NCBI RefSeq assembly: GCF_900163695.1
Contig: NZ_FUIC01000036.1
Location: 1-35,905 of the forward strand
Source of the DNA: Gulosibacter sp. 10
Lineage (GTDB): Bacteria > Actinomycetota > Actinomycetes > Actinomycetales > Microbacteriaceae
Direction: 5' to 3'
Length of the DNA: 35,905 nt
The first letter of the stretch is position 1; each line of letters begins with the position of its first letter. Below the pieces are notes generated by a model. The model worked only from the letters and a program-made list of their open reading frames with translations, did no database searches and had not been told where the DNA came from. This document shows, one piece after another, positions 1 through 14,776 of this stretch. The translations under genes were made by a program, and so were the position numbers.

Positions 1-443
1 ACAAAGACCATGTCACCACCGGTGCCATCCGGTGACCTGACCGGCAACAAGTCCGTGTGGTCACTCAGGTTGGTCAGAAACCTGGAAGCGACTGCGGCTA
101 ATTGTTTCACATGCCCATGCGTGTATTCGCGCAGGTGTGAGCCCAGTGTTGAGGGCGCATACACCCGATGGAACAATGATTTCATCCCACCATGCCGCAG
201 CAGATCCATGTCATCGATGCTGTCGGCACCAGCAGCCATCCCAGCGACCAGCGACGTGATCTTCGTCCCTGGATTCGCACCCTTATCGGCCCCAGTATTA
301 GCCACCGTGATCCACTCATCAGCTAAACGTTTCAGCCCCGCAGACTGCGCCAACCGCAACACGGGAGCAAGCCCAGCCGACGACACGAGATTCGGTTCAT
401 CAAACGAATAGGCAATACCAGCAGCACTGTGATTGAATAGCAT
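1..443 (-). CDS. IS1380-family transposase, N-terminal part (cut by window edge)
   Basis: DDE transposase moving the insertion sequence. About 147 residues are visible. From the ATG at 443 the reverse strand reads MLFNHSAAGIAYSFDEPNLV, then further on the family-typical stretches GTKITSLVAGMAAGADSIDD, MDLLRHGGM and APSTLGSHLREYTHGHVKQL. These are hallmarks of the N-terminal region of actinobacterial IS1380 transposases; the catalytic DDE domain lies beyond the edge, so activity cannot be judged. A purine-rich AGAAAGGCAC lies about 10 bases before the start and may serve as RBS, although it overlaps the subterminal repeat of the IS. The frame is open to the window edge without a stop. Confidence 0.85.
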   Translation of the reverse strand, partial: MLFNHSAAGIAYSFDEPNLVSSAGLAPVLRLAQSAGLKRLADEWITVANTGADKGANPGTKITSLVAGMAAGADSIDDMDLLRHGGMKSLFHRVYAPSTLGSHLREYTHGHVKQLAAVASRFLTNLSDHTDLLPVRSPDGTGGDMVF

Positions 444-3303: not shown

Positions 3304-3621
3304 ACTCCTTCGGTTGGTCTTTCGTCATCTGCACCGTGCCGATGACTCCCCAGACCGTTAGAGCGCTGTATGACTACACAACCCCTCCTTAGTCACGCTT
3401 CGATTCAGGTCCCTCCTCTTTGCCCTCCACCAGTCAGATACGGCCCATTTCTCTCGTCTCCTGGCTCTCAGCCCCATTCCTCCTCTAGCCCCTCTTTTTC
3501 TCTACACACGCTGGCATCCGCCTGCGGCGGCTTGCACGGCCAGCGTTCGCGCACACGGTCCTCATACGTCCACACAACTCCTCGGCACGGTGCCAGGAGG
3601 GACGATTTGAGGAGGACGGCA
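3304..3621. other. Divergent intergenic region with oriT-like hairpin
   Basis: This 318-base stretch separates the leftward coupling-protein operon from the rightward relaxase gene. The plus strand is strongly pyrimidine-rich from about 3385 to 3505. It contains a nested inverted repeat: arms ACGCTGGC (3508-3515) and GCCAGCGT (3539-3546) enclosing CCGCC (3518-3522) and GGCGG (3526-3530). Location beside the relaxase, plus an imperfectly nested hairpin next to skewed DNA, is what is expected of an origin of transfer. The nick site cannot be assigned. It must also hold the two divergent promoters, which I could not place. Confidence 0.5.
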
Positions 3622-6600
3622 GTGGCCGCATCAATTGCAACCATCAAGGCGGGCCAGGCGAAGGCCTTGGCCGACTACTACGCGAACAAGGCGTCGGAGA
3701 GAGTCGCTGACCTCGCGATGGACCCCGAACACGCGGACAAGTCCGCGGACGAGCTGATGATGCTCGCACGCATCCAAGTGGCCCGCGAGGAAGCTATGCA
3801 CGATGGCAGAGACCCGGACAGAGCGGAGGTGAAGGAGCGTGCCGCTATCGCCTCGGATCGCGTCGCCGGGGCCACCGCCTACTACGCCGCGGACGACGCC
3901 GACCCGGACGGGCGACGTGTTTGGATTCGCGGCGACCGTGCCGGAGAAGCGATCACCGGGACGCAGTTGGAGGCGCTGTTCTTGGGCGCGGACGAGGCAG
4001 GGCAGAACCTAGGAGACCCAGCACCGCAGGAGATCAAGAAGGCCGCGAAGCTCGCCGGGTACACGGGCGAGATAACACCCAACGTTCTCGCCTCGATGCG
4101 TGCGGGACTGCACCCCGAGACCGGCGCAGAGCTAACCGGCGATGCTGCCGACTACGCCCGGCAGGTGTGGGCAGCACCGGAGCGGAACGAGAATGCCGTG
4201 ACCGCTTTCGACACGACGCTGAGCGCTCCCAAGGGCGTCTCGCTGCTGGCCGCGTTCTGCGATGATCGGACCGCCGAGGCCGTCATCCGAGCGCATCAGG
4301 AGGCTGCCGCGCAAGCGTTGGACTGGGCGCAGGAAAACGGGGCGGTCGTGGCCCGGCGCGGTAAGGACGGCGTGGTCCATCAGGCGGCCGAGCTGACCGA
4401 AGCGGCGCAGATCACCGAGATGACATCTCGGGCAGGCGACCCTCAGCTCCACACCCACACCCTCGTCTCCGCCTACGTTGTCAGCAACGAGGACGGACGC
4501 CGCACCACCATGGACTCCCAGGCGTGGCATGGAGCGTCTGCCGCGATCAACGCGAGCTACCTGCGAGCCCTAGACGCGAACCTGCGCCAAGAGGTCGGCG
4601 TGGGCCTGGAGCTGGACGAGAAGGGACAGCGCACCGTGGTCCCCGGCATCGCCCCGCAACTCATCGAGCGCTACAGCTCACGCCGTAACGCGATCAACGA
4701 GACGATCACCGAGCGCACGCAGGAGAAGGAACGCCTGGAACAGGTCATGGGCAGTGCCCGCCACCTGTTCAAGGAGTCGCACCAGGCCCTCGAGGCAGGC
4801 GAGGCCCTCACCGACGCCGAGACGCGCCGCGCCGAGGTCTACGGGCAATGGCTGGATTCGGGGACCACTCCGCAAGCCGCTGCACTGGACACCCGCGTCT
4901 CGAAGGCGGAGGAGCCCGAGCACGTCGCACGCGAGCGCTGGGCAGCAGACCCGACCACCCCGGACGGGGCACGCCTGCTCGGCGGAGCACAGGCCGCCAC
5001 ACAGCAGGCACAGCACGCTCCTGTGGCCGAGTGGGGCGAGGTCGAGCAGGCCCGGTTCACCGCCGAACTGGCCGAGCACCTCACGAAGGATGCCGCAGCG
5101 TTCTCCACTAAGGAAGCGCACGCGGCCGCCCTTCATCTGGCCCCGACAGGTGTGAGTACATCCGAGATTGCCGAGACCGTGGACGACTACCTCACCCGTG
5201 GCGCGGTCCTGATGCAGGAGCGCGAGGAAGCCGAGCGGGTAGGCGACCGCTGGGCGGAGAAAACGCGGAGGTTCACGACTTCCGAGATCGTGCAGGAGCA
5301 GCAGCACATCGTGGCGACCGGGCAGCAGCTCGCGGACGACACCGTGCCCGCGATCAGAGAAACGAATCTGAGGGCCGCCGCCACGGTTGTGAACTCACAT
5401 AGGGTCTCGGAGGACCAGGAACAGCTCGTGGGCGCGTATCTCACCGGGCAGCGACTCATCACCTGCGACGGCCCCGCCGGCGGCGGCAAGAGCCGCGTCG
5501 CGGAGACGATTGCGGAGCTGGCCCATGGGGCGGGGGCGCAGGTCACGGTCCTGTCCACGCAGACAGACACCGCCGCCGATCTTGCCGCTGAAATCGGCGC
5601 GGATCGCGCCATGAGTTTCCAGAAGGCGACGATGCGCGCCGCCGACGAAGACAACCCCCACCATTCCAAGGGAGTTTTCGAGTCGGGCTACTGGGGGCAG
5701 GGCCTCACCGCTGAGCAGGCCGACGACTATCACACGATCCGCATGCACCAGCGCGAAGCCAAGACCGACCGGCAGCGTGAGAAGGCAGAGCGCGAGATGG
5801 CGCGTTGGGTCGAGTCCCTGCCGACGAAGGCCGATGCAAAGCTCACCCAGCAGACCCGTTCTCACGTCGAGCAGATGGACAAGCTCGCCCGGTGGACAGA
5901 CATCGGAGATCGCTCGGAGCTGCACCAATGGCGCACGCAACTCATCGCGGAGGCAGCCGAGCAGCCCGAAACCGTGGTCAAGATCGACCACGACAGGCCG
6001 CAGGTCATCATCGTGGACGAAGCCGCGATGACGAACAACCAGCACCTCGGGCGTCTACTGGACTATGCCCGCGAGCACCGCAACGTCCAACTCGTCATGG
6101 TGGGTGACACCGCGCAACTCGGCGGTATCGGACGTTCAGGCGCATACCGCGCCCTGCTGGACGAGGTGCAGCCCGTGCAGCTCGCTGAGACGCGCCGGGC
6201 ACGGCAGGAATGGGAGCGCGAAGCCCAGCTCTCGATGCGCGGGCTCGACTACACCGACACCGCCGAGACCCACGATGCGGCCCGAGCACTGGTGGACACC
6301 TACCGGGCACAGGGGCGTGTGGGCCACATCGGTGACGAAGACGTGTCCCGCGCTATCGCAGACGGTCGTGCGGAAGCCTCCGACAAGCGCGCCGATATGG
6401 ACCTCGCCGCAGAACAGGCAGCCGACTGGTACATGAGCCGCCGCGGCGACCAGGACACCCTCGTGCTCACCGCGACTCGCGCCCAGCAGGTGCAGGTGGC
6501 ACAGCGCATCCAGGAACGGCGCATCGCGGACCCGGACGACAAGGCGATGCGAGCCGATGCGAAGACCGCGACGCTCGACCTGGGCGAGGGCCAGACCCAG

Positions 6601-7257
6601 CAGGCGCAGAAGGGTGAGCCGGTCATGGTGCGGCAGAACGACACCCGCCGTGGCCTACGCAACGGCATGACTGGCGAGGTAGTCGCCGTGAGTGCGCGTG
6701 GTGGCGTCACCGTGCAGATGACCGACGAGCGCGGACGAACGTTCAAGACGTCGATGACCCGGAAGGACCTTAACGAGGGAAAGCTCTCCCTCGCCTACAG
6801 CAGCACCAGCCACAAGGCGCAGGGGGCAACCGTGGACCGGGCACTGTACATCCATGACGCGAAGTCCCCGCATGTGGACCGGCACATGGTCTATCCGTCG
6901 GTCAGCCGTGGGCGTCAGGAGAACCGGATTCTCGTGGTCGGCGGAGCCGACGAGACCGAGGCAGCAGAGTCGTTGGCCACTGCAATGCACCGCAGCAACA
7001 CCGCCGAGCCGGTCCGCGTGGTCTCTCAGCCGGTCTCCGATGCAGAGCGGGAATGGGTGGCCAAGCGCCACCCGAGCCTGCCACGCGAGCAGCAGGACGA
7101 GATGGCCCTGCGCATGCGTGAGCGTGACCAGCGCCATGCCCGTGACGATGCCCGAGACCGCCAGATCGCACAGCGTCGCCAGACGCAGCAGCTCGCCCAG
7201 GAGCGCGACCGCGTACAGTCACGCCGCCGCGGGCTCGGGCGCGGGCGCGCCGCCTGA
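3622..7257 (+). CDS. traA: MobF-type relaxase-helicase (TraA/TrwC-like)
   Basis: A 1211-residue relaxase that nicks oriT and unwinds the transferred strand. The GTG at 3622 is chosen because GAGGAGG lies 6 bases before it; the open frame reaches back to 3370 but that part is low-complexity and overlaps the oriT-like region. N-terminal TrwC/TraI domain: tyrosine pairs Y19-Y20 and Y87-Y88 are nucleophile candidates, and the metal site reads E266 ... H277-x-H279 in the motif TSRAGDPQLHTHTLV. C-terminal RecD/TraI-like helicase: Walker A GPAGGGKS at 617-624, Walker B VIIVDEAAM (D799, E800), and STSHKAQG near 1061-1068. The first metal ligand, His in TrwC and TraI, is Glu here at the same spacing. 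The tail is Arg/Gln-rich and charged. The J-domain gene follows after 15 bases, probably co-transcribed. Confidence 0.9.
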   Translation: MAASIATIKAGQAKALADYYANKASERVADLAMDPEHADKSADELMMLARIQVAREEAMHDGRDPDRAEVKERAAIASDRVAGATAYYAADDADPDGRRVWIRGDRAGEAITGTQLEALFLGADEAGQNLGDPAPQEIKKAAKLAGYTGEITPNVLASMRAGLHPETGAELTGDAADYARQVWAAPERNENAVTAFDTTLSAPKGVSLLAAFCDDRTAEAVIRAHQEAAAQALDWAQENGAVVARRGKDGVVHQAAELTEAAQITEMTSRAGDPQLHTHTLVSAYVVSNEDGRRTTMDSQAWHGASAAINASYLRALDANLRQEVGVGLELDEKGQRTVVPGIAPQLIERYSSRRNAINETITERTQEKERLEQVMGSARHLFKESHQALEAGEALTDAETRRAEVYGQWLDSGTTPQAAALDTRVSKAEEPEHVARERWAADPTTPDGARLLGGAQAATQQAQHAPVAEWGEVEQARFTAELAEHLTKDAAAFSTKEAHAAALHLAPTGVSTSEIAETVDDYLTRGAVLMQEREEAERVGDRWAEKTRRFTTSEIVQEQQHIVATGQQLADDTVPAIRETNLRAAATVVNSHRVSEDQEQLVGAYLTGQRLITCDGPAGGGKSRVAETIAELAHGAGAQVTVLSTQTDTAADLAAEIGADRAMSFQKATMRAADEDNPHHSKGVFESGYWGQGLTAEQADDYHTIRMHQREAKTDRQREKAEREMARWVESLPTKADAKLTQQTRSHVEQMDKLARWTDIGDRSELHQWRTQLIAEAAEQPETVVKIDHDRPQVIIVDEAAMTNNQHLGRLLDYAREHRNVQLVMVGDTAQLGGIGRSGAYRALLDEVQPVQLAETRRARQEWEREAQLSMRGLDYTDTAETHDAARALVDTYRAQGRVGHIGDEDVSRAIADGRAEASDKRADMDLAAEQAADWYMSRRGDQDTLVLTATRAQQVQVAQRIQERRIADPDDKAMRADAKTATLDLGEGQTQQAQKGEPVMVRQNDTRRGLRNGMTGEVVAVSARGGVTVQMTDERGRTFKTSMTRKDLNEGKLSLAYSSTSHKAQGATVDRALYIHDAKSPHVDRHMVYPSVSRGRQENRILVVGGADETEAAESLATAMHRSNTAEPVRVVSQPVSDAEREWVAKRHPSLPREQQDEMALRMRERDQRHARDDARDRQIAQRRQTQQLAQERDRVQSRRRGLGRGRAA

Positions 7258-7272
7258 GAAAGGGAGACCCCC

Positions 7273-7965
7273 GTGACGCTTGTAGAAGCGCTCAACACCC
7301 TTGGCCTGGCGCCCGCAGCGACCCCGGACGAGGTCAAACGCGCCTACCGCGCGCGCATCCAGGCGACTCACCCCGACCTCGCCACAGACGGCGACGACGC
7401 CGCGCGACGCGCCACCGAGGCCGTGCGCGTGAACGCCGCTCGTGACCTCCTACTCGCGGGCGGCACCGGCACACCCAGCCAGGCCAGCCCGCAGCCAGAG
7501 ACGCCCCCGGCACCACCCCATTCGGAGCCCGCGCAGTGCTCACCCACGCCGGGACGGGACGAGCGCCGCACTACCGCGGCGACGCCCACGACCCCGGCAG
7601 CGCGATCAACCGAGCGCGTAGTACACCCACTCCGCTGGTTCCTCTCCATCGGCGGAGCGCTCATCGTCGCAGGCGCGGTCGCTCGCTTCCTACACGCCTG
7701 GGATGGCGCACTGGAACCCACAAAGTGGGGAGACGCTTCCCTAGCGATGGGGCCGCTGGCGATCCTGCTGCACGCGGCGGTCGGCCTGGTTGGGGTCTGG
7801 TTCCTGGGCAGACGCGCGGACCGGCCCGCCCGCGCCGTACTCGCCCTCGCAGTCATCCTCTACTCGTCGTTCTCAGAAGTAAGCCATCGCCTGAACTTCA
7901 TCGAGGAGGCGATACTCCTCATCGTCCTCGTCGTCTGGCCGCTGTACCGCCTGGTGACCAGGTAG
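7273..7965 (+). CDS. Membrane-anchored J-domain protein
   Basis: A 230-residue protein with an N-terminal J domain (residues 1-60) carrying the HPD signature at 33-35, which in this family stimulates the ATPase of an Hsp70 partner. A proline- and threonine-rich linker follows (about 65-112), then three or four hydrophobic segments: about 118-137, 155-176, 184-200 and 208-226. There is no glycine-rich or zinc-finger region, so it is not a canonical DnaJ. GTG start, GGGAG about 6 bases upstream. It lies 15 bases behind the relaxase gene, so a role in transfer, such as handling relaxase unfolding at the membrane, is conceivable but inferred from position only. Confidence 0.75.
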   Translation: MTLVEALNTLGLAPAATPDEVKRAYRARIQATHPDLATDGDDAARRATEAVRVNAARDLLLAGGTGTPSQASPQPETPPAPPHSEPAQCSPTPGRDERRTTAATPTTPAARSTERVVHPLRWFLSIGGALIVAGAVARFLHAWDGALEPTKWGDASLAMGPLAILLHAAVGLVGVWFLGRRADRPARAVLALAVILYSSFSEVSHRLNFIEEAILLIVLVVWPLYRLVTR

Positions 7966-8626: not shown

Positions 8627-9010
8627 TCATCGGGAAGGGCTGCCGCCTTCGATGGGGTGTGGACCAGGATCTAGGATCGTGCGGGCCGTCTGTGCTGCTT
8701 GCGAGTGGGGCTCAGCACCAAAGTCATACAGTTCGGTCATGGGTATGTCGAGCACCGCAGCGATGGCGGCCACCGTGGAAAGTTTCGGGTTCGCGTGCGT
8801 ACCCGCTCGCCTGGACGACGACTGCCCGGTCTCAATCAGCGCGTAATGCGCGCGGGTGAGGCCAGCGGTGTACGCAACCTGCTCTTGCGTCAGTCCGCGC
8901 GCTTCTCTGAGGCGCTTAATACTGCTTCCCAAGCGGCGCGCGTCGTCGGCCGTCCATGCAAGTGAGTCCACTCGCACCAGTCCAGTTTGATAGCGTGCTG
9001 TTGTCTGCAT
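8627..9010 (-). CDS. XRE-family helix-turn-helix regulator
   Basis: A 127-residue transcription regulator with a Cro/C1-type HTH at about residues 26-90: LGSSIKRLREARGLTQEQVA followed by AGLTRAHYALIETGQ and, after an arginine-rich insertion, PKLSTVAAIAAVLDIPMTEL. The insert SSRRAGTHA between helix 3 and 4 is slightly longer than usual. The tail after residue 100 is probably disordered. Its start is 28 bases from the start of the divergent lipoprotein gene, so one short shared region must hold both translation starts and probably part of both promoters; autoregulation and control of the lipoprotein are likely but inferred. A GTG at 8971 (VDSLAWTADD) is an alternative start. Confidence 0.85.
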   Translation of the reverse strand: MQTTARYQTGLVRVDSLAWTADDARRLGSSIKRLREARGLTQEQVAYTAGLTRAHYALIETGQSSSRRAGTHANPKLSTVAAIAAVLDIPMTELYDFGAEPHSQAAQTARTILDPGPHPIEGGSPSR

Positions 9011-10760: not shown

Positions 10761-10770
10761 GGAATTGACT

Positions 10771-12390
10771 TTGCGTCTCTCCAAAATCGCCATCTCCAAT
10801 CACAGTCGGATCCAGGATCTTGGCCTCGACATCCGTCGGCACGCAGTCATCGTGGGCGCGAACGACGTCGGCAAGTCTTCGATCCTGCGGATGCTGAACC
10901 TGCTTCTAGGAACGAGCACCGCCGGCGTCTACCAAGCGCTGACTCCTGGCGACCTGAGGGACACTGAGCAACAGCTCGTCGTCAACGCCATGTGGACGGA
11001 ATTCACGGACGAGAACCGTCGATGCTTCCCCTCCGAGATCAGCATCGCTGAGGACCTCACGAGTGAGTACCTCTGGGTGCAGATGGCGGTGGAGGCGGAC
11101 CCCGAGGACGAAGAGTCCGTGACGATTCGTCGATGGTTTCCCGAGAGCGGCCACGAACGAGCGCCCAGCCGAGAGCAACTCGAGGCCTTTGGTTGGCGCT
11201 ATCTGAAGGCGACCCGAGGAGCCTCGATGATGGAAGGTTCACGCAGCCCCGTCCGGACTCTCCTGGCAGCCGCGGACCTCGGCACCAACGAGGACAGCTT
11301 GAAGACGATCCTCGACCAGTTCAATGAAGAACTGGCGGGCAACGAATCCGTTGGAGAGCTCTTGGGCCGTGTCGCTGGTCATCTGAGCCGCGCGATGCCA
11401 CGCGTCGTCGAGAAGGATGACTTCTCGGTCAGAAGCGTCACGGACCCATCTAGCGACGTGCTCCAGGACGTGTCGATCTTCCTCAACCGCGATGACGGAC
11501 AGGTCTCCCTGACGGAGCAGTCGGACGGTGTGCGGCAGCTCATGTCGATGACGCTCTTCGACCTGGCGGAGGGAACAGCCAACGTCCTCGCGATCGATGA
11601 GCCGGAGATCCACCTTCATCCCACCAGCCAGAGGACGGCAGCGGACCTCTTGAGCGGTGAAGGGAACCAGAAGATCATCGTCACGCACTCGCCATACGTG
11701 CTCCACCGGTTCGAGCCTTCGGAGGTCATCGCGGTGGATCGACACGGAAAGTGTTGGCAGATCAGCGACACGAAGCTCTCGAAGGTCGAGAAAGTGCGAG
11801 CCCATTGGTGGTCGCCGCGTCTCTTAGAAGCGCTGACCGCTAGGTTCGTTGTCCTGGTCGAGGGCAACGCCGACCGGATCATCGTCGAGGCGGTGGCCAA
11901 GGAACTCGGCATCGATCTCGACCGGCTCGGCGCGGTCGTCGTGGAGCTCGACGGGGCCGACAAGTTCACGAACGTCTTCCCGCTGCTGGGGCCCGACGGC
12001 TTCGGCCCGACTCTGCTCGGCCTGGTGGACGAGAAGGAGAGCGGCAAGTGGATCGGCGCGTTCAAGGGCAAGCCTAAGCACATCATCGACAAGAAGATCT
12101 TCATATCCGACGCTGATCTCGAGGACGAGTACACACGAGCGCTCGGCGGCCCCTCCGCGGCGAAAGCGCTCATCGATGGTGGATTCTGCCGTGAACAAGG
12201 AATCCTGATGTCGGCTGAGTGTGACTCTGTCGATGCGATCACTCCTGAAGCGGTAGCCGTATTTTGCCGAGACAAGGGAAAGGTCGAGGCGGCAACCTGC
12301 ATCGCTGACGTTCTGAATGCGGAGACTGCCGAGGAAATCGGAAGCGTGGCACGCCTCCTGCGTGTGCTGGACGACTTGAGCCAGCAGTGA
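10771..12390 (+). CDS. gajA: Gabija GajA: OLD-family ATPase with TOPRIM nuclease
   Basis: Nuclease of the Gabija anti-phage system, 539 residues (Bacillus GajA is about 580). The TTG at 10771 is chosen since AAGGGA precedes it by 7 bases; a TTG at 10765 would be too close. ABC-type ATPase domain: Walker A GANDVGKS at 29-36, signature-like LTEQSDGVRQ at 248-257 region, Walker B LAIDEPEIHLHP with D276-E277, and the switch histidine in IIVTHSPYV. C-terminal TOPRIM domain: VLVEGNADR with E364, LGLVDEKE with D420, SDADLEDE near 446-453 and K502/K504. In the known system GajA assembles into a tetramer and cuts phage DNA, with nuclease activity held back by nucleotides. It overlaps gajB by four bases, so the pair is translationally coupled. 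Stand-alone OLD nuclease is excluded by the helicase partner. Confidence 0.88.
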   Translation: MRLSKIAISNHSRIQDLGLDIRRHAVIVGANDVGKSSILRMLNLLLGTSTAGVYQALTPGDLRDTEQQLVVNAMWTEFTDENRRCFPSEISIAEDLTSEYLWVQMAVEADPEDEESVTIRRWFPESGHERAPSREQLEAFGWRYLKATRGASMMEGSRSPVRTLLAAADLGTNEDSLKTILDQFNEELAGNESVGELLGRVAGHLSRAMPRVVEKDDFSVRSVTDPSSDVLQDVSIFLNRDDGQVSLTEQSDGVRQLMSMTLFDLAEGTANVLAIDEPEIHLHPTSQRTAADLLSGEGNQKIIVTHSPYVLHRFEPSEVIAVDRHGKCWQISDTKLSKVEKVRAHWWSPRLLEALTARFVVLVEGNADRIIVEAVAKELGIDLDRLGAVVVELDGADKFTNVFPLLGPDGFGPTLLGLVDEKESGKWIGAFKGKPKHIIDKKIFISDADLEDEYTRALGGPSAAKALIDGGFCREQGILMSAECDSVDAITPEAVAVFCRDKGKVEAATCIADVLNAETAEEIGSVARLLRVLDDLSQQ

Positions 12391-14060
12391 CGGCGTTCGA
12401 GCTCAGTGCGGAGCAACTTGCGGCCGCCACCTCCGCGAATGACCACCTGCTCATCATCGCCCCGCCCGGCTGCGGCAAGACCGAGGTTCTGGCACATCGG
12501 GCTGCTCACCAGCTCCAGCTTCTCGAGCCGAACCAGCGCGTGCTCGCCCTGACATTCACCAAGCGTGCCCGCGCGAACATGGAGGAGCGCCTGCGTTCAG
12601 TACTCGGGAACGCGCGGACTCGACGTCAGGTCGTCGTCCGCAACCTCCACGGCTTCGCTACACAGGTCATCCTTGCTCACGGCAGAACCATCGGCCTGAC
12701 AATGGAGACGCTCGAGCTGCCGAAGACGCGCACGATGCGGCGCGCGATGGAAGCCGCGGGAGGCGGCGAGGAGATGTACGCCGCGGAGAAAGTCTTGGCC
12801 GAAGTCAAGCGCGGCCCGCTCTCGGATGCTGAGGTGCTGGAAGCACTACAAAGGCGGGACCGGGGCCAAGCTGTGGTGCTCGCCGAGAAGGTTGAGCGGT
12901 CGCGCCAATCGGCGAACCAGCTGCACTATGAGGACCTCCTCCGCCATGCGCAGCGTCTGCTTCGCATCCCAGCTGTCGCCCGTCTCTACCAGGCGCACTT
13001 CGGCGCGGTGCTCGTCGACGAGTTCCAGGACCTCTCATCGCAACAACTCGACCTGGCCATGCTGAGCTGCACGAACAGGCGGACCTTCGCTGGGGACCCC
13101 CTCCAGGGCATCTTCTCGTGGGCTGGAGCAGCACCCACCGAGGTCGAGGCTGAGCTTCGGCGCACCTGTGGCGAGCCGATCAGACTCCATGAGTCCTACC
13201 GCTCCTCGCCGAAGGTCCTCGAAACAGTCAACTCCATCAGCGAGCTCGTAGATCCTGGGTCCGCGTTGGTCGCCGCACGGCCAGACGAATGGCCCGACGG
13301 AGGTTGCTCTGGGGCCCTCGTGTTCCAGGACCGTGACGCAGAGGCCGACACACTGCTTCGTCTGGTCGGGTCCATCTTGGAGAAAGCGCCCGAGGCATCT
13401 GTCGGCATCATCATTCGGAGCAAGTGGCGAAACTCTGCGATCCATGGCGTGTTCGATCGCGAGATGCCGTATCCGGTCCGCCGTTGGGACCTTGCGGTTC
13501 ACGATCCCGAGGTCGTGGCGCTCATCAAGGCCACTGTGGCGAGGCTGCCGCGCGGAGCCACGCTGGCTGAGGCGCGGCTCGCCGTTCTGGACTCCGTGGA
13601 TCCAGCAGACGTCGACGCACGCGAGTTGATCGACGACGCGTTCGACGCACTTGGCCGGCGCGATGCGGGCACGGCCAGGGCGGCAGTGAAGGCGATCAGG
13701 ACCGCCGATCCCAAAGCAGCAGTAGGCCCTGGCGTCCACCTGCTCAACGCGCACACCGGCAAGGGCCAGCAGTTCGACTGGGTTTTCGTCGTCGGACTTG
13801 AAGCTGGTCACCTGCCTGACAAGAGGAGCAGCGAGGGCGACTCTCTCCTTGAAGAGCAGCGAGTGCTGCTGGTCATGCTCTCGCGCGCCCGACACGGGTT
13901 GGTCGTGACCAGGTCGCGGATGAATGAGGGGCGCTACGGACCCTATGCCGCGAACCAGAGCCGCTGGTGGTCAGACATCCAGACACGGTGCACCTCGGCG
14001 GAAGAGATCGAAGCCCATCTCCTCATGCTCGAAGCTCCGACGCACCACGTAATCACTTAA
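12387..14060 (+). CDS. gajB: Gabija GajB: UvrD-like helicase
   Basis: Superfamily-1 helicase partner of GajA, 557 residues, compared with about 500 in Bacillus. The GTG start overlaps the gajA stop in a GTGA. Motifs in order: Q-like FELSAEQLAA (4-13), Walker A APPGCGKT (25-32), Ia LALTFTKRARANMEERL (53-69), Ic NLHGFATQ (86-93), II VDEFQD (210-215), III FAGDPLQGIFSWAGA (234-248), V NAHTGKGQQFDWVFVVGLE (about 453-471) and VI RVLLVMLSRARHGL (about 491-504). In Gabija GajB is thought to sense DNA ends and nucleotide depletion and to activate GajA. Its stop codon lies within the palindrome at the junction with comM, so its last codons sit at the very edge of the element; the C-terminus looks complete. 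Confidence 0.88.
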   Translation: MTAFELSAEQLAAATSANDHLLIIAPPGCGKTEVLAHRAAHQLQLLEPNQRVLALTFTKRARANMEERLRSVLGNARTRRQVVVRNLHGFATQVILAHGRTIGLTMETLELPKTRTMRRAMEAAGGGEEMYAAEKVLAEVKRGPLSDAEVLEALQRRDRGQAVVLAEKVERSRQSANQLHYEDLLRHAQRLLRIPAVARLYQAHFGAVLVDEFQDLSSQQLDLAMLSCTNRRTFAGDPLQGIFSWAGAAPTEVEAELRRTCGEPIRLHESYRSSPKVLETVNSISELVDPGSALVAARPDEWPDGGCSGALVFQDRDAEADTLLRLVGSILEKAPEASVGIIIRSKWRNSAIHGVFDREMPYPVRRWDLAVHDPEVVALIKATVARLPRGATLAEARLAVLDSVDPADVDARELIDDAFDALGRRDAGTARAAVKAIRTADPKAAVGPGVHLLNAHTGKGQQFDWVFVVGLEAGHLPDKRSSEGDSLLEEQRVLLVMLSRARHGLVVTRSRMNEGRYGPYAANQSRWWSDIQTRCTSAEEIEAHLLMLEAPTHHVIT

Positions 14061-14064
14061 GTGA
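14053..14064. other. Palindrome at the element-comM junction
   Basis: TCACTTAAGTGA is a perfect 12-bp palindrome. Read forward, TAA at 14058-14060 ends gajB; read in reverse, TAA at 14057-14059 ends the truncated comM. The host-element border lies 2-3 bases to its right. It is a candidate attachment-site core or element end; the left end would be needed to decide. Confidence 0.6.
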
Positions 14065-14776
14065 CTACGCCCGGCGGGCCGATGAAGTACAGGTGATGCC
14101 CGCCCGCCGCGGCGACCGCGAGCGCGCGGATCGCGTCCTCCTGGCCGATCACATCCCGCAGATCGGGAGGCGCCTGCCCCGCCGTGGACGCCTCGGCCTG
14201 CGACGGCGCGGTCCGCTGCGGCGGCGCATCCTCCTCGGCCTCCGACAGGAGGTCCGGGTCGGCTCCGTAGTGCAGCGCGAGCGACCGCAGTGTCGCGATG
14301 GGCACCACCTCGATGCCCGTCACGAGCTCCGCCTCGGCACGGCATTCGGCCGGGACCAGCACCCTCTCGAATCCGGCGTTCCGCGCCGCGAGCACCGCCG
14401 GCAGCACGCCGCGCACGGAGCGCACCGCGCCGTTGAGGGCGAGCTCGCCGATGTGCGCGCTGCCCTCCGGGCCGCCGCCGTGGATGAGCCCGGTCGCGGC
14501 GAGGATCGACGCGGCGATCGCGAGGTCGAACCCCGAGCCGTGCTTGCGCAGCGAGGCGGGCGACATGTTCGTCGTCACCCGCCTCGCCGGCAGCGCGTGC
14601 CCCGTGGAGTTCAGCGCGGCGCGGATGCGGTCCACCGCCTCGCCGAGCGAGGCGTCCGGGAGCCCGATGAGCACGAACCGCGGCAGCCCCTCCGCCACGT
14701 GGGTCTCGACCTCGACGGGGTGCCCGCCGAGCCCCTCGAGCGCGATCGCCCACGCCCGGCACGTGCGGGCCGTCAC
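14057..14776 (-). pseudogene. comM: comM (YifB-type AAA+ ATPase), truncated by insertion
   Basis: ComM is a hexameric AAA+ helicase that promotes branch migration during natural transformation and has an N-terminal Lon-like S5 domain and a Mg-chelatase-type ATPase domain; its usual length is about 500 residues. Here only 239 remain: the N-terminal domain is complete (AEGLPRFVLIGLPDASLGEA, TTNMSPASLRKHGSGFDLAI, IGELALNGAVRSVRG) and the ATPase domain starts at DLRDVIGQEDAIRAL, but the frame ends G-P-P-G-V-V-T-stop where GPPGVGKT is expected. The rest must be left of the element. The GTG start overlaps the yraN stop in GTGA, so the two were translationally coupled. Without Walker A the product cannot hydrolyse ATP. 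Confidence 0.9.

Follow-up and report, generated by a model that had tools for sequence, protein, structure and literature searches.

A probable mobilizable element encoding Gabija and a large serine recombinase interrupts comM at the Walker A motif in Gulosibacter sp. 10

A split comM gene and the element beside it

The window analyzed here, 35,905 nt long, is the whole of contig C13 in a 55-contig assembly of Gulosibacter sp. 10. It begins in an insertion sequence (IS), continues through the genes of a mobile element, and then reaches the 5′ part of comM. The main features are given below, together with the recombinase gene located at the other end of the element on contig C35.

1-563, no strand: one IS end, where C13 begins, with a transposase remnant at 3-443 (minus strand; DDE_Tnp_1_4, E 6.4e-4, under the cut-off)
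564-568, no strand: CTAAG beside the IS; the same 5 bases stand at the IS end on C35 (241475-241479)
897-2684, minus strand: TraG/VirD4-like coupling protein (Pfam TraG-D_C, E 1.6e-15; T4SS-DNA_transf, E 3.3e-11)
3370-7257, plus strand: MobF/TrwC relaxase with a helicase domain (Pfam TrwC, E 1.1e-42; NCBIfam MobF, over the cut-off)
7273-7965, plus strand: weak DnaJ-domain protein (Pfam, just under the cut-off)
8627-9010, minus strand: helix-turn-helix regulator (Pfam HTH_3, E 1.2e-10)
10765-12390, plus strand: gajA, OLD-like ATPase/TOPRIM protein of Gabija (PADLOC PDLC00075, E 1.3e-165; Pfam AAA_15 and OLD-like_TOPRIM)
12387-14060, plus strand: gajB, UvrD-like helicase of Gabija (PADLOC PDLC00121, E 3.4e-151; Pfam UvrD-helicase)
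14053-14064, no strand: perfect palindrome TCACTTAAGTGA at the right tip of the element (sequence)
14057-14776, minus strand: comM 5′ fragment, from the ChlI/Lon-like domain to G-P-P-G of Walker A (translation, Pfam, NCBIfam)
14070-14074, no strand: core of the right junction (putative attR), CCCGG on the plus strand and CCGGG in the orientation of comM, paired with L036:2395-2399 on C35
L036:2424-4166 (C35), reading into the element: large serine recombinase (LSR), 580 aa (Pfam)

Translation of the comM fragment yields 239 aa with the C-terminal end ...HHLYFIGPPGVVT-stop. The protein stops just after G-P-P-G, in agreement with the original prediction that comM is broken inside its Walker A motif, and the unrelated island said to adjoin it proved to be a mobile element with a relaxase, a coupling protein, and Gabija. 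Pfam recognized ChlI in this fragment (E 2.5e-35) and matched Mg_chelatase only at positions 1-33 of 207, while the NCBIfam match to TIGR00368 (YifB family) runs to profile position 221 of 499. A YraN-family gene (NCBIfam) lies immediately to its right. The missing 3′ part, which the prediction expected beyond the island, is present on another contig (C35:238032-238934, minus strand), where it adjoins the opposite end of the element close to the terminus of C35, which is 241,534 bases long. It shares 72% identity with codons 221-520 of a same-genus comM, reads ...VPPGSGKTMLAE... / ...LALVPPGSGKTMLAE..., and is followed by a DprA-like gene (read by eye). Both halves of the ComM/YifB layout, a ChlI/Lon-like domain and then the Mg_chelatase AAA+ domain, are present and divided over the two fragments. 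The left end of the element chances to contribute P-P-G to the 3′ fragment, which thus retains a complete-looking Walker A. The G+C content is 0.60-0.71 in 1-kb intervals wholly to the left of the comM break, 0.72-0.77 in intervals over the first 4.5 kb to its right, and lower again further right.

Contigs C35 and C13 terminate in what appear to be the two ends of one IS, presumably of an IS1380-like family, with CTAAG outside each. A third contig, C6, terminates in the same left IS end, but with CTAAA outside; the assembly holds only one right IS end, and the 565-base IS piece is present once. Because of the end on C6, the IS probably exists in at least two copies and may prefer such targets, so the 5-base CTAAG match is modest evidence. 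C35 would accordingly join C13 through the IS, a pairing that we base mainly on the complementary parts of comM, with CTAAG as support.

The element comprises about 16 kb plus one IS; leaving the IS aside, C35 contributes about 2.6 kb and C13 about 13.5 kb of what is seen. The LSR gene lies at its left end, the relaxase and coupling protein genes lie in between, and Gabija occupies the right end. An integrase of its own and a relaxase, the hallmarks of an integrative and mobilizable element, are both present. Among the 14 element open reading frames (ORFs) given to Pfam, no conjugation gene was found beyond those for the relaxase and coupling protein, which is why we term the element mobilizable and not conjugative. 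The anti-phage defense system Gabija, here a predicted one, is represented by gajA and gajB, which have strong PADLOC matches and are adjacent with a 4-bp overlap. The gajB stop codon lies 9 bp from the core of the right junction, and the 12-bp palindrome supplies the stop codons of both gajB on the plus strand and truncated comM on the minus strand.

Junctions, recombinase, and origin of the insertion

In the orientation of comM, the right junction has the sequence ATCGGCCCGCCGGGCGTAGTCACTTAAG and the left junction GCGTTGGTTCCTCCGGGATCGGGCAAGACG. Both contain CCGGG, plus a CC slightly before it. Joining the flanks at CCGGG yields a single comM frame of 527 aa with G-P-P-G-S-G-K-T, whose product shares 71% identity with a same-genus ComM across 522 residues. 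The alignment contains a single gap of 3 residues about 45 residues before the join and none across it. Such a frame is not a chance product. The uninterrupted state is also found among relatives, as comM is an open frame of at least 523 aa in nine of the ten same-genus genomes searched; the Walker A codons are intact by DNA pattern in six of these nine, the other three not fitting the pattern. The tenth (G010) has a comM that is split at the Walker B codons and, around codon 50, lies in two frames. What can be read directly from the DNA of Gulosibacter sp. 10 is that comM is split, that its two junctions have a core in common, that an LSR gene adjoins a junction, and that the frame is restored when the flanks are joined.

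The LSR contains Resolvase, Recombinase, and zinc ribbon domains (Pfam E 1.5e-21, 1e-11, and 1.4e-6, all over cut-offs), and its start codon lies 24 bp from the core of the left junction. A recombinase gene at the element end and attL and attR sites sharing only a short core (CCGGG) are the arrangement of an LSR element. No close relative of this LSR was found in the collections searched (order genomes, genus, plasmids, phages, and viral contigs), and the genome-contig collection and the viral contigs contained no relative. A search of 297 order genomes at E 1e-20 gave matches only in the own genome and in G279 (29%), whose integrase (L038) adjoins a TadA-type ATPase gene, read from the DNA by eye, and not comM. 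LSRs at 26-28% identity occur in 4 others of the 11 genus genomes (own included), and the 6 plasmid and 81 phage records all fall below 60% identity and 80% coverage, the best listed being at about 32%. As the LSR start abuts the att site, we considered promoter exchange on circularization; no sigma-70-like promoter was found in L036:2200-2600, which leaves this as only an idea. The genome also contains a second LSR of 525 aa (G000:C32:2579-4156, L106), very distant from the first and located near an ORF resembling a tyrosine recombinase (by eye).

We infer that this LSR carried out the integration. The putative attB would read ...GGCCCGCCGGGATCGGGCAAGACG..., with crossover within the shared CCGGG. 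Very probably, then, a mobilizable LSR element (about 16 kb plus one IS) was inserted by its own LSR into an attB in the Walker A codons of comM. Crossover in CCGGG would have split comM and left attL and attR sharing the core, and ComM activity would be lost. The element may still be able to excise and would transfer with the help of another conjugation machine.

Three other explanations were weighed. The insertion could be a reversible switch in which regulated excision restores comM, as in the comK prophages of Listeria and the XisF-excised fdxN element. Joining at the core does restore the comM frame, and XisF is the NCBIfam profile that the LSR matches best, albeit far under the cut-off (79.3 versus 375 bits); precise restoration is, however, expected of any LSR element in a gene, no excision factor stood out among the genes identified, and we regard a switch as highly improbable. 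Still less likely is a Tn7-like (AbaR/Tn6022-type) or other DDE transposon, with CCGGG as a 5-bp target duplication. The length of the shared core would suit such a transposon, and Tn6022 does target comM: Tn6022 and Tsy are described as being guided by TnsF to a 10-bp stretch within the part of the gene that encodes Walker B (PMC10293859). Like the Gulosibacter element, these AbaR-type and Tsy elements sit in comM at codons for an ATPase motif, but the break studied here is in Walker A, the element does not share the Walker B insertion point that defines the AbaR/Tn6022 type, and an LSR at its end abuts the junction. Moreover, no Tns/Tni or TnsF-type Tn7-like transposition protein was found among the 14 ORFs given to Pfam, and visual inspection revealed no inverted repeats that match between the ends. 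Least credible of all is that comM was already broken, or was split by assembly, with an unrelated island merely beside it: the comM parts do lie on different contigs, but both breaks fall within the same five bases, both sides run into non-comM DNA, and the joined protein is gapless across the join.

Split comM genes across the order

A survey of actinobacterial comM genes for insertions at the same codon had been proposed. Using the complete comM of the same-genus genome G005 as the query, 396 order genomes were searched, of which 386 matched at E 1e-12. Thirty-five genomes were searched again, namely, 34 flagged for several or weak matches and G010, which stands outside the sample; 25 stretches were fetched, including two from the own genome that fall outside the survey. 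The gene is split in at least 13 of the 386 genomes (own included), a lower bound given that only flagged genomes were re-examined, among the matches listed. G157, G171, and G237, with two matches each and from the same genus as G101 and G143, were left out of the second search.

The splits fall at three points. Walker A is split in the own genome and in G071, the only other instance of the proposed insertion point; the remaining cases lie at codon ~86 (F-D-L; G044, G259, and G399) and in the Walker B region (codons ~310-318; G175, G383, G373, G313, G425, G197, G094, and G355). The comM parts lie on two contigs in G197, G094, and G399, and only the 5′ part was found in G355. Left out of the count were partial matches, several of which stop at contig ends (G253, G128, G199, G204, G333, G076, and G092), close matches in an apparently single comM (G052, G057, G101, G143, G185, G284, G323, G348, G403, and G422, of which G052 is in two frames and G422 has a weak third match on another contig), and complete comM genes with an extra piece or copy (G254, G312, G318, and G218).

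Of the 13 split cases (own included), 11 have an LSR at a junction or in the stretch between the two parts of comM, as does G010; the surroundings of comM in G425 and G355 yielded no LSR. For G175, the PF07508 search gave 0 matches, and the case is made by an ORF that shares 50% identity with the LSR of G383. In G044, G399, G010, G373, G313, and G197 (L074, L076, L081, L084, L087, and L089), the LSR gene comes after the 5′ fragment of comM and is read in the same direction, an arrangement in which the comM promoter might read into the LSR gene. Beside the comM 3′ part and reading away from it, the LSR is found in the own genome, G071, G175, and G383 (L036, L071, L082, and L083).

Several individual loci have features of their own. 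In G010 (L080-L081), of the same genus, Walker B is split by a different LSR element, with about 34 kb between the comM parts; two of the three sites are thus represented within a single genus. In G399, one contig (L076) bears an LSR and a junction at codon 86, and another (L077) a junction at Walker B; comM codons ~88-300, between the two junctions, gave no match in this genome. The gene content of the codon-86 element of G044 (L074), which includes an AAA_25 protein and a protein of a phage capsid family, would fit a phage satellite. In G355 (L109), comM breaks off at the Walker B codons; beyond it, as read by eye, lie ORFs resembling ATPases and helicases and then a DprA-like gene.

The two LSRs at Walker A are only 26% identical over 417 residues. 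The G071 junctions have GGCCCGCC in common; placed over GGCCCGCCGGG, this core and the CCGGG of Gulosibacter sp. 10 overlap in CC, which could therefore be the crossover point of both enzymes. Among the 18 LSRs placed in a tree, the enzyme of G071 clusters with those of Amnibacterium, Pseudarthrobacter, and Curtobacterium (support 100/99). Its relatives L091-L093 (42-45%) might have been expected in comM, and no comM fragment was found within 3 kb of any of them. The LSR of Gulosibacter sp. 10 falls elsewhere, on a long branch whose placement the program called unsure. Since the one groups with enzymes outside comM and the other lies elsewhere, Walker A of comM was probably reached twice by LSRs. 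The seven Walker B enzymes form three groups, and well-supported branches force at least two changes, while the three codon-86 enzymes form a single group.

The original prediction likened the choice of comM to that of AbaR-type islands and ascribed it to independent targeting. Independence is borne out by the three points and the several LSR lineages, while the island itself, with an LSR at its end and an insertion in Walker A, is not AbaR-like; the link to AbaR would be one of analogy only.

comM as a target and the possible consequences of its loss

The magnesium chelatase/ATP-dependent protease gene, which we read as comM/yifB, is reported as the target of 12.4% of predicted site-specific LSRs, and competence genes are enriched among LSR targets (PMC10083194). 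The elements in that study resemble ours in having a large serine recombinase and in the kind of gene targeted, but Walker A is not named as a site in its main-text passages, and the LSR described here has no close counterpart in the collections searched. An LSR preference for comM and the targeting of Walker B are already in print (PMC10083194, PMC10293859). In the literature found, as judged by titles and abstract openings, supplements excluded, no LSR attB is described within the part of comM that encodes Walker A; chelatase, comM, YifB, and ATPase are absent as whole words from the main text of PMC12884075.

Mobile elements are reported to inactivate comM in association with lower transformation, a pattern argued to reflect a conflict with transformation, and defense systems often occur at the comM locus in Acinetobacter (PMC11472951, PMC4774983). 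Those insertions resemble ours, in which comM is presumably inactivated by the mobile element as well, but the species named there are Gram-negative. ComM is described as a transformation helicase of Gram-negative bacteria that is absent from Firmicutes (PMC11612176). Natural transformation has been studied in the actinobacterium Micrococcus luteus (PMC8467076, PMC6667448), and the word comM has zero occurrences in the available text of these two papers. No test of the role of ComM in Actinobacteria was found in the literature searched.

The genome of Gulosibacter sp. 10 contains a ComEC-like gene (PF03772, E 2.8e-42, frame of 779 aa) and a DprA-like gene, indicating that parts of a DNA-uptake path exist in this host. 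For the loss of ComM, PMC11472951 cites a fall of two orders of magnitude when the DNA is divergent and a very slight effect when it is identical. If ComM works in this host as in Gram-negative bacteria, its loss would be expected to lessen the recombination of divergent incoming DNA.

The mobilizable, Gabija-bearing LSR element in comM is a new instance of a behavior that has been recorded before for elements of this kind. To the known preference for comM it adds an LSR lacking close relatives in the collections searched, with a putative attB in Walker A, a motif that two distantly related LSRs reach. A bolder idea, which we consider doubtful, is that several LSR lineages have converged on three motif-encoding points of comM in Actinobacteria because disabling ComM pays, as ComM would otherwise remove integrated elements. 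If this were true, ComM would clear elements by recombination with incoming DNA or through another activity against them, and actinobacterial ComM would be an unrecognized barrier to mobile elements and not a bystander with well-conserved codons. The locus is a small, self-contained setting in which to ask what draws elements to comM, its conserved DNA or the gain from disrupting the gene.
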